From Nanobdellota archaeon (lineage in GTDB: Archaea > Nanobdellota > Nanobdellia > Pacearchaeales > GW2011-AR1): a stretch of DNA of 32,566 nt. Positions 13,939 through 16,857 of the stretch are shown piece by piece. How positions within the stretch are numbered: the first letter of the stretch is position 1; every line of letters begins with the position of its first letter. The notes beneath the pieces were generated by a model. The model saw only the letters and a program-made list of their open reading frames with translations, had not been told where the DNA came from and made no database searches. Location: NCBI GenBank assembly GCA_022563455.1, contig JADFNI010000005.1, positions 1 to 32,566 on the forward strand, read 5' to 3'. The position numbers and the translations under genes were made by a program.

Positions 13939-14023
13939 TCTTATAATCGTGTTGGCTAGATCTGTAGAACAGATTCAGTCTGAAGTATAGTTTTTGTCCG
14001 AAGTTTGTCCGAGCTTCATTTCT

Positions 14024-14206
14024 ATGATCCCAACACCAGTTTTAGGAGAAATAAGAAAGAAAGCCAATGAACAAAATATTTCAATGGCTGAATGGTGTCG
14101 GAGAAAGTTGAGGGGAGATGATCAGTTGGATGGGATTGAGGAGAAGTTGGATAATGTGGTTACTTCAGGTAATCCAATTCTACTTAAAAAATTAGAAAAT
14201 CTTTGA
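14024..14206 (+). CDS. Small putative ribbon-helix-helix-like protein (60 aa)
   Basis: MIPTPVLGEIRKKANEQNISMAEWCRRKLRGDDQLDGIEEKLDN; its 3' end overlaps the convergent ORF at 14122. Confidence 0.4.
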   Translation: MIPTPVLGEIRKKANEQNISMAEWCRRKLRGDDQLDGIEEKLDNVVTSGNPILLKKLENL

Positions 14207-14859
14207 GATAAATTTTCTCTAAATAAAATATTCATAGTCGCTAAATAACTCTTTTCATATTGTTCATATATTATATCTCTAGGAATTGTATAAAAATGTT
14301 TAAAGTCTATAACCAGTTCAGGAATCTGTAAGTCTACTTCTTCATGGAGGTAATGAAATCTTTCATATTCTTTATTATTCTTTACTTTAATAATTTCTTT
14401 TTCAGGAAAGTTCCTCATTTTAATATGTTGACTCTTTAAATGATCTCCCTTCTTGAAATTATTAATATCATAAGCTGGACAAACTAAGATAGTATGAAGT
14501 TTGTGGTCTTGAGTTTCTTCTTCAGTAATTTCTAGTTTGACTTCTTTTCTGCCAAAATCAGACTCTAGATCACAATCTTGACTTATAACTATCAAGTAAG
14601 GATAGGTGAACAATCTCCCTTTTTTTGATGTAAAAGATACAAATTCTAAAAATTTAACATCTTTCAGTATATCTCCTTGACAAACTCTTCTACTATTATG
14701 TTTCCCATATCTATTATTAATTTTGCTTAATTTCAAATTCGATGATTTCACATTCAACACTGGTTCTTCCATATTTTTCATAATTAATATCTTTTGGTTT
14801 AGGTTGATCTGCTTTAATTTCATTCTCAGATAATGGGGTGGAAATTTCCTCAAATTCAT
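14122..14859 (-). CDS. Hypothetical protein with YLIVISQDCDLE motif, third gene of the cassette
   Basis: VCQGDILKDVKFLEF...YPYLIVISQDCDLESDFGRKEVKL. The true start is probably near 14731 (TTG), since the N-terminal part overlaps the preceding ORF. Confidence 0.6.
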   Translation of the reverse strand: MNLRKFPPHYLRMKLKQINLNQKILIMKNMEEPVLNVKSSNLKLSKINNRYGKHNSRRVCQGDILKDVKFLEFVSFTSKKGRLFTYPYLIVISQDCDLESDFGRKEVKLEITEEETQDHKLHTILVCPAYDINNFKKGDHLKSQHIKMRNFPEKEIIKVKNNKEYERFHYLHEEVDLQIPELVIDFKHFYTIPRDIIYEQYEKSYLATMNILFRENLSQRFSNFLSRIGLPEVTTLSNFSSIPSN

Positions 14860-14926
14860 TTAATGAAGGATTTATAATACTCTTTGTTAATGGCTGGGTT
14901 TCTTTATCCATCAATAATTTCTCCAT
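14717..14926 (-). CDS. Small hypothetical protein, second gene of the cassette
   Basis: MDKETQPLTKSIINPSLNEFEEISTPLSENEIKADQ...; overlaps the 3' end of the TIGR04255-like gene. Confidence 0.5.
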   Translation of the reverse strand: MEKLLMDKETQPLTKSIINPSLNEFEEISTPLSENEIKADQPKPKDINYEKYGRTSVECEIIEFEIKQN

Positions 14927-15665
14927 TCATTATTTTCCTAAGATTATTACCTATACTTTTTTCAAAAGTCTTTTTAACAACCTCATGAAACTCTTCTAAT
15001 AGATTAATTATGTCCTCCTTGGACAATTCCCCTTCTAAAAAACAATCAGTATCTAAGGTAAATTCCTTTCTCACTATTTTACTTGGATACAAACTATTTG
15101 GGATACCATATTTAAAAACAATAGTATAATTATCTTCTTTAATGTAAATTTCTTGCATTGTTCTCATCAAGTTCTTAGAACTCACAAATCTTATTGAAGA
15201 TGTAAGATCATCACAGATAATGTCTTTCCAATCAAGTGGATCTCCTGAATCTAATTTTATTTCATCTATATATCTTAATCCAATTCTATCTATAATCTCA
15301 ATAGTATATTCTTCAAAAAGAGACTTAAGAATTAATTTGATATCTGAAGTAAGCTCTTTAAAATTAGAGTAGTAATTTTTATATTCTAAATTCAATGAAT
15401 TTTTAGATAATATAACAGCTTTTGTTTTCTCTTTATTGTAAAATTGCCATGTTCTTGCTCCTACAGATACTTGATTTTTATTTAAATTTTCCCCTGATGA
15501 AACAGATAGATTAATATTTAGTTCGCTTGGTTCCCTCAATATGGGGAATAAATCAATTATCTTTGATTGAAACCCTGAAGGAAGTTTGTTTTCAAGTTCA
15601 AGAATTGTAGGAAAGTCAATTCTAAAGATTATATTACTAATAAAATTCTTTTTATATTCTCCCAT
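14904..15665 (-). CDS. TIGR04255-like sporadically distributed protein
   Basis: NIIFRIDFPTILELENKLPSGFQSKIIDLFPIL...SVGARTWQFYNKEKTKAVILSKNSLNLEYKNYYSNFKEL...IDRIGLRYIDEIKL is typical of this family. Confidence 0.7.
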   Translation of the reverse strand: MGEYKKNFISNIIFRIDFPTILELENKLPSGFQSKIIDLFPILREPSELNINLSVSSGENLNKNQVSVGARTWQFYNKEKTKAVILSKNSLNLEYKNYYSNFKELTSDIKLILKSLFEEYTIEIIDRIGLRYIDEIKLDSGDPLDWKDIICDDLTSSIRFVSSKNLMRTMQEIYIKEDNYTIVFKYGIPNSLYPSKIVRKEFTLDTDCFLEGELSKEDIINLLEEFHEVVKKTFEKSIGNNLRKIMNGEIIDG

Positions 15666-15778
15666 ATATTTTACAACACTCTAGACTATTTAAAAATATA
15701 TCTTTTTTCGCAATTCTGACAGTTGCTAGTATGCCTTGATTTGAAAAGTTTTTTAAAGTTGAAAATATTTATAGAACT

Positions 15779-15961
15779 ATGGAATTTTGTAATGTCAGTT
15801 GGTGGTTGGATATTGTGGCCATTCTTATTCTTCTCGGATTTAATGTTGTAGGGATCTTTTCCAAGTGGCTTAGAGAGAATTTTGGGATCCCAAAGAATAT
15901 AATTCAATCAATTCTGGCGGCATACCTGATTGTCTCTGTTATTCTTTGTAGACCATTTTAA
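15779..15961 (+). CDS. Putative small membrane protein (60 aa)
   Basis: WWLDIVAILILLGFNVVGIFSKWLRENFGIPKNIIQSILAAYLIVSVIL: two TM-like segments. Confidence 0.35.
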   Translation: MEFCNVSWWLDIVAILILLGFNVVGIFSKWLRENFGIPKNIIQSILAAYLIVSVILCRPF

Positions 15962-16030
15962 TCTATATAGATTTACTTCGGACAGTATCATTCTACTTCG
16001 GATACCCCCAACGTATGCTCGGACTGAATC

Positions 16031-16053
16031 TGTAGAACAACCCAATTTATAAA
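16031..16053 (+). promoter_or_regulatory. Promoter and upstream element TGTAGAACAACCCAATTTATAAA
   Basis: TATA-like TTTATAAA centred about 25 nt before ATG 16075; 22/23 identical to the element upstream of the 28876 minus gene. Confidence 0.7.
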
Positions 16054-16074: not shown

Positions 16075-16857
16075 ATGGAAAATGGAGAATTATCTCCGAG
16101 ACAATTTACCGCGATTAAAGGAAGCATTGATCTAGGGAGAACTTTGACAGAAGAACATCCAGAAATAGCTAATCTTTACAGGGAGGGTAGCTCCATACCT
16201 CAAATCGTAGAAGAATTAGACATACAATCAAGATATGACGTTACAGGTAATATCGCATGGAGTGGTGTTCAAAGAGCAATCTCAGGTCATGAGAGTGGTT
16301 TTAATTCGGATCCATATGAAGGACTAATTCCAGATACTAGAGAAAGAGGGGAATTGGCAAAAGACCACAATCGGAAAAGTGGCCTTAAATCATATGAAAT
16401 GAGAATTGGTGCTCATGGGAGAACTGCTGAACAAACAACGAAAGATAATAGAAGGGCTGGTCGTAAGACCTATCAAATGGGGGTTGGAATTCATGCCCAA
16501 ACATCAGAAAGATTAAGTGAACTTGGTCGCAAGGGAGGTCGCAAAGCATACGAAGAAGGATTAGGAATGTTTGGGAGAACTTCGGAACAAACTAGTGAGG
16601 ATAGTCACAAAGGGGGTTACAATGCTACACTAAATAGGGGTCAAATACCTTGGGTAATAGGGAGAATACCTGAAGTAGAATATGCCTACGCATTAACTTT
16701 TCTTCCAGAATTTCAAAAAGATTCTTCCAGAGTCAATAATAAATTAATTGCTCTAGAATTAAACATAGAATATCATGATTGTGAAGAAGTGAGAACTGTA
16801 AGTGCAGTTAGATCTCAACTTTCGAAATACAGAAAATCTCTTGAGGAGAAGGTTTAG
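16075..16857 (+). CDS. KGG-type repeat protein with N-terminal HTH-like segment
   Basis: Roughly 27-aa repeats: DHNRKSGLKSYEMRIGAHGRTAEQTTK / DNRRAGRKTYQMGVGIHAQTSERLSE / LGRKGGRKAYEEGLGMFGRTSEQTSE / DSHKGGYNA. Confidence 0.65.
   Translation: MENGELSPRQFTAIKGSIDLGRTLTEEHPEIANLYREGSSIPQIVEELDIQSRYDVTGNIAWSGVQRAISGHESGFNSDPYEGLIPDTRERGELAKDHNRKSGLKSYEMRIGAHGRTAEQTTKDNRRAGRKTYQMGVGIHAQTSERLSELGRKGGRKAYEEGLGMFGRTSEQTSEDSHKGGYNATLNRGQIPWVIGRIPEVEYAYALTFLPEFQKDSSRVNNKLIALELNIEYHDCEEVRTVSAVRSQLSKYRKSLEEKV

Follow-up and report, generated by a model that had tools for sequence, protein, structure and literature searches.

The window analysed here, the whole 32,566-nucleotide stretch of DNA, is contig C72 of a 974 kb genome that is 87% complete and assembled in 74 contigs; judged from its relatives, its host is a small-genome archaeon. 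All three minus-strand open reading frames that the original prediction had placed in a single cassette (15665-14904, 14926-14717 and 14859-14122) were found in the window, and the GC content inside the cassette is 25-30%, versus approximately 30-34% to its left and 35-40% to its right. The genes and the candidate promoter in this region are listed below.

14904 to 15665, minus strand: first cassette gene, a TIGR04255 family protein of 253 aa (NCBIfam TIGR04255, 1e-39; AlphaFold2 pLDDT 92.3)
14717 to 14926, minus strand: small second gene, 69 aa (family alignment of 34 sequences; a small ORF is found here in most loci)
14122 to 14736, minus strand: third gene, a protein with a predicted MazF/PemK fold and a QxCDL motif, about 204 aa from a probable TTG start, with the ORF open to an ATG at 14859 (family alignment, AlphaFold2, Foldseek)
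15666 to 15720, minus strand: likely leaderless archaeal promoter of the cassette, an AT-rich, TATA-like stretch directly upstream of the ATG at 15665, as read from the sequence
14024 to 14206, plus strand: small RHH-like gene encoding 60 aa (17 of the 52 genomes searched, its own included, have homologues; weak NikA-like match, 0.049)
15779 to 15961, plus strand: predicted membrane ORF of 60 aa within the bounded segment described below (no family match above threshold)

The first protein, predicted to be TIGR04255-like, proved to be a member of that family (sporadTIGR04255, NCBIfam TIGR04255), matching the profile over its full length (2-252 of 252) with 136.9 bits, far above the curated cut-off of 30. 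The family itself is uncharacterised, and no paper naming it was found in the literature searched. The structural model of this protein is confident, but AdoMetDC/prozyme and TBP, which were considered as its fold, gave weak matches (TM approximately 0.3, rmsd 10-19 Å) from which no assignment was made. The small gene lies upstream of the third gene and overlaps it, and encodes a protein with a variable N-terminus and a conserved, strand-like C-terminal tail, Y-x-x-x-(K)-x-x-R-x-(V/I), in the alignment of 34. The start of the third gene probably differs from the one first proposed, being TTG 14736 (204 aa) and not ATG 14859, because members of its family open with the motif (M)xLSKIxxxYxKHNxxRxxQGDIL near the stop of the small gene, and in the window this motif comes after TTG 14736. 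Convergent with the third gene, and overlapping its 3' end, is the RHH-like gene, which, like the 60-aa plus-strand ORF, the original prediction had overlooked.

When 84,980 species genomes were scanned using an alignment built on the third protein alone, seeded on Q[DA]CDLE or QGDI, 49 loci were returned, and in 45 of these a TIGR04255 gene was found directly upstream on the same strand. The gap between the two genes in the 45 loci is the size of the small gene and mostly contains an ORF of 55-90 aa, with a different-looking ORF of about 110-140 aa in one clade (Planctomycetota, Myxococcota and others). The other four loci were either truncated by a contig end (L050, L052) or had no TIGR04255 match (L039, L053). 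The same three genes are found in identical order in a relative from the same family as the window's archaeon (G346), in a divergent version in a relative from the same genus (G009), and on a Methylocystis plasmid, where they adjoin an AbiJ-type abortive infection gene and WGR genes. The adjacency of the three genes in other genomes, on which the original prediction had staked its case, was thus seen in the 45 of 49 loci, in the two relatives and on the plasmid. No conserved fourth gene was found, the genes beyond these three not being recurrent among loci, and the three genes are therefore the unit.

The hosts of the cassette are archaea and bacteria from at least 14 NCBI phyla, and the distribution is patchy: a TIGR04255 match was present in only 4 of 371 genomes of the phylum, and cassette members occur sporadically, on plasmids and IMG/VR contigs as well. 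The tree of the third protein intermixes phyla, in places with good support (Omnitrophota with Planctomycetota at 100/96, WOR-3 within Methanobacteriota), a pattern that can also stem from binning errors and paralogues. On two IMG/VR contigs (L073, L074), QxCDL proteins come after two other small genes in place of TIGR04255, perhaps a phage version.

The AlphaFold2 model of the third protein (mean pLDDT 90.8, pTM 0.82) predicts a PemK/MazF fold with confidence. All 50 of its best PDB matches in Foldseek were MazF proteins, from Staphylococcus, Bacillus, Mycobacterium, E. coli and others, with probabilities of 0.91-1.00, modest E-values of about 1e-3, and TM-scores of 0.51-0.72 by target and 0.30-0.40 by query. 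Among the five best viral matches (BFVD), four were PemK/MazF and one was an endoribonuclease. Sequence comparisons did not find this relationship: none of 47 family members had a Pfam or NCBIfam match, a search of PDB sequences returned nothing credible, a search of the archaeon's own genome with PF02452 gave no match, and profile-profile comparison (hhalign) of the family with 11 archaeal MazFs gave none either. Since that last comparison gave nothing, the assignment is one of fold alone, and homology to MazF is not proven.

The active site appears to be different. MazF activity needs Arg28 and Thr51 in the Klebsiella protein (PMC8086154). In the third-protein family, F, L, H, Y or I precedes the conserved proline where MazF has its catalytic arginine ("RP"), and the position equivalent to Thr51, mapped by eye, is occupied by Y or F, so the catalytic pair of MazF appears not to be conserved and a MazF-type active site seems to have been lost. 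In its place the family strongly conserves QGD/E, a Q-x-C-D-L that closes a strand, R-(Y/F)-H, DFK and two arginines in the C-terminal part; the invariance of QxCDL and QGDI is inflated in the 47-sequence alignment by their use as search seeds, while the conservation of R141, D159, K161, R194 and R201 (numbering of the 219-aa form) is free of this effect. With the Arg/Thr pair apparently lost and the Gln-x-Cys-Asp-Leu, Arg, His and Asp-Phe-Lys residues kept, the chemistry or the target of this protein is probably unlike that of MazF.

The best-known system with a similar plan is MazEF/PemIK (PF02452, PemK_toxin), and a strict type II toxin-antitoxin reading, in which the small protein would be a MazE-like antitoxin and the third an mRNA interferase, would account for the predicted fold, for the small gene just upstream of and overlapping the MazF-fold gene, and for a small protein whose C-terminal tail is conserved and whose N-terminal region is poorly so. 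We consider this reading unlikely, as no MazE or AbrB match was found, a TIGR04255 gene is an additional presence at nearly every locus, and the catalytic residues of MazF appear not to be kept in the third protein. The cassette protein is also larger, at about 200 aa versus about 110, and has no Pfam match.

The same apparent absence of Arg and Thr, along with conserved positions unlike those of MazF (MazF residues as in PMC8086154), would fit a MazF-fold protein that is a non-catalytic subunit, binding nucleic acid or protein within a complex that it forms with TIGR04255 for regulation or modification; the operon would then be a sporadic accessory function and not defence. The weak, AdoMetDC/TBP-like structural matches of TIGR04255 and the mostly non-defence neighbours of the cassette agree with this explanation, which we regard as plausible but not probable. 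Against it stand the sporadic, transferred and self-contained nature of the cassette, its presence on plasmids and IMG/VR contigs, and the replacement of the third gene by HEPN genes in some operons.

This replacement was seen on a Thermus plasmid (L021 3785-5479, near cas6), where TIGR04255 is followed by a gene of 160-192 aa and then, in the slot otherwise taken by the MazF-fold gene, by a HEPN protein (4.2e-6), and again in a relative (G046; L011 636-2256), where TIGR04255 and a gene of 160-192 aa precede a 36%-identical homologue of the Thermus HEPN protein. The Thermus operon resembles HEPN toxin-antitoxin and Abi modules (PF05168) in this respect, whereas the window's cassette has no HEPN gene. 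Downstream of TIGR04255 on plasmids and IMG/VR contigs come an HTH or small gene and, after it, proteins bearing a GD...(S/H/D)xxC motif, for example HPCA or DPCC; the divergent version in G009 shares 50% identity in the third protein, and 63% in the small protein, with one IMG/VR contig. Because HEPN or divergent GD...C-motif proteins take the third place elsewhere, third genes appear to be swapped around TIGR04255, in a group whose structure was predicted for the QxCDL proteins and whose wider membership is linked by motif and position.

The classic RNase toxins include proteins of the MazF fold as well as HEPN proteins, and for this reason, the best argument we can offer, the third gene may be regarded as the effector. 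A broader proposal, to which we would give somewhat short of even chances, places TIGR04255 proteins at the centre of a class of defence or toxin-antitoxin systems, undescribed and widely transferred, in which both the third gene (MazF-fold QxCD, divergent HPCA/DPCC-motif, HEPN) and the middle gene (disordered peptide, helical protein, HTH) can be exchanged; one such module would here travel as a transposon-like cassette in a small-genome archaeon. In a Rhodococcus plasmid (L019 4779-5654), the third gene of a TIGR04255-HTH-HPCA operon stops after 67 aa, right before an ISL3-family transposase gene.

The gene neighbourhoods lend partial support to the defence-type role that had been suggested for the cassette. 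The MazF fold, the HEPN alternative and certain neighbours make a defence role plausible: at L044 the cassette comes after type I methyltransferase and specificity genes, at L034 it adjoins a type IIG restriction enzyme, at L048 a DNA methyltransferase, and on the Methylocystis plasmid (L017) the AbiJ gene. Most neighbours are not defence genes, however; the 141 examined belong mostly to scattered housekeeping families and do not point to a defence-island enrichment, and neither PADLOC models nor Pfam gave a match for the cassette proteins. A link to MADS defence was considered and dropped when those mad2 and mad5 matches that were inspected proved to be generic type I methyltransferase/specificity homology.

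The cassette lies within a segment of 2,059 bp (13972-16030) that is bounded by the following repeats.

13963 to 13971, plus strand: left 9-bp direct repeat TGTAGAACA, a putative target-site duplication (sequence, repeat statistics)
13972 to 13983, plus strand: left terminal inverted repeat GATTCAGTCTGA
13995 to 14013, minus strand: two left sub-terminal units TGTCCGAAG / TGTCCGAG
15976 to 16004, plus strand: two right sub-terminal units CTTCGGACA / CTTCGGATA
16019 to 16030, minus strand: right terminal inverted repeat GATTCAGTCCGA
16031 to 16039, plus strand: right 9-bp direct repeat TGTAGAACA (sequence, repeat statistics)

The inverted repeat first proposed, ACAGATTCAGTCTGA / ACAGATTCAGTCCGA at 13969-13983 and 16019-16033, is real, with 14 of 15 positions complementary, and the CTTCGGACA-like units were located where they had been described. 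Taken alone, an imperfect inverted repeat of 15 nt carries little evidential weight in DNA rich in AT: under a strict scheme, 345 of 60,000 real segment pairs scored as well as the two ends. Under a gapped scheme the two ends outscored all of 3,000 dinucleotide shuffles, and only 39 of 40,000 real inverted pairs were not outscored by them. The segment ends read GATTCAGTC(T/C)GA, a 12-bp inverted repeat matching at 11 of 12 positions, and both of its outer sides are abutted by the exact 9-bp direct repeat TGTAGAACA, a feature that the original prediction had missed. Among the 274 inverted pairs in the window, the flanking direct match was at most 6 bp apart from the TGTAGAACA pair and its shifted registers, and it never exceeded 7 bp in 13,298 inverted pairs from 60 shuffled windows or in 1,164 pairs from 171 kb of other archaeal and related loci.

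Inverted ends with an abutting 9-bp direct repeat are the mark left by an insertion that duplicates 9 bp of its target, and these statistics make it fairly probable that the segment was inserted as a transposed element. Non-autonomous insertion elements likewise have terminal inverted repeats and target duplications of 8-9 bp, but this segment is single-copy, has no identified transposase or parent element, and carries an operon. Of the mobile-type cassette with sub-terminal binding repeats that had been proposed, the terminal inverted repeat has thus held, now with a target-duplication signature, and the TTCGGACA units are at most putative transposase-binding sites. The genome-wide search for further copies of the ends that had been proposed as a check yielded none, the ends being single-copy in their own genome. 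Apart from chance matches, they were absent from 274 relatives, and a comparison of synteny around the PCMT gene in five relatives, which might have revealed an empty site, found that the neighbours are not shared. Matches to ACAGTTTCAGTCTGAGG in relatives were rejected as element ends, as the ones inspected were mostly EF-2 coding sequence. The EF-2 gene of one related genome (L119 1-3015) apparently contains an intein.

The main rival for the ends is that the left end holds an operator for the RHH-like gene. Under this explanation the palindrome ATCTGTAGAACAGAT and the TGTCCGA units would bind the RHH-like protein (14024-14206) or another regulator, both in the RHH-like gene's own promoter and in that of the gene at 16075, and the cassette would merely lie between them. 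The latter gene (16075-16857) encodes a KGG-repeat-like protein with a 62%-identical paralogue in the same genome (G000:C16:22659-23444), and was not found in 29 other genomes searched. The positions of the units fit operators, with the left ones 11-29 bp ahead of the RHH-like ATG and the right ones directly upstream of the TATA-like TTTATAAA and the ATG at 16075, and RHH proteins commonly autoregulate. The 9-bp direct repeat is, in addition, near-palindromic (TGT-AGA-ACA), so the inverted and the direct match partly share one cause, and an operator could mimic part of the insertion signature. Yet no such units precede the paralogue of the 16075 gene, the RHH paralogues of the same genome differ in their upstream sequence, and an exact 9-bp match abutting an inverted repeat occurred in none of the shuffled and none of the other real pairs; we hold the operator explanation to be possible but would not favour it. 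The ends were also rejected as promoters of the 16075 gene family, the upstream region of the paralogue being without them.

The conserved module of three genes, with its candidate effector of MazF fold, has good support. Taking the cassette and its ends together, the explanation we prefer, with about even confidence in it as a whole, is a horizontally spread, three-gene, toxin-antitoxin-like module, consisting of a TIGR04255 protein, a small linker or antitoxin-like peptide and a MazF-fold effector, that was inserted here as a segment. The function of the cassette is most likely that of a toxin-antitoxin-like or abortive-infection module, and for toxicity, antitoxin role, trigger, catalysis and transposition we infer the following scheme. 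The small protein, antitoxin-like in being encoded just before the effector gene and overlapping it, and/or the TIGR04255 protein would keep the MazF-fold protein inactive until it is set free by a trigger, for example when a virus infects the cell or the locus is lost; the freed protein would then act on RNA, on a different nucleic acid or on a target in translation, and growth would stop. The module, together with the RHH-like gene and the 60-aa ORF, would have been mobilised in trans and inserted as the 2,059-bp segment, with inverted ends of 12 bp and a target duplication of 9 bp.

The linkage of TIGR04255 to a MazF-fold partner was found here, and it provides an uncharacterised, sporadic family with a frequent partner whose predicted fold is testable, in a three-gene unit that is now defined across at least 14 phyla of bacteria and archaea. 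It leads us to predict that this unit acts as a toxin or defence module complete in itself, whose active site differs from MazF's. Should this prove correct, it would be a module type missed by current defence and toxin-antitoxin libraries, and it would account for the patchy distribution of TIGR04255.

Two minor observations concern the genes beside the cassette and their paralogues. The paralogue of the 16075 gene begins beside a tRNA-like sequence with an apparent intron. Two RHH paralogues of the same genome (L115 1-400, L116 1345-1745) share a near-identical upstream region, about 110 bp long, that contains an inverted repeat, AATCGGAGAAA...TTTCTCCGATT, and may be a small repeated element.
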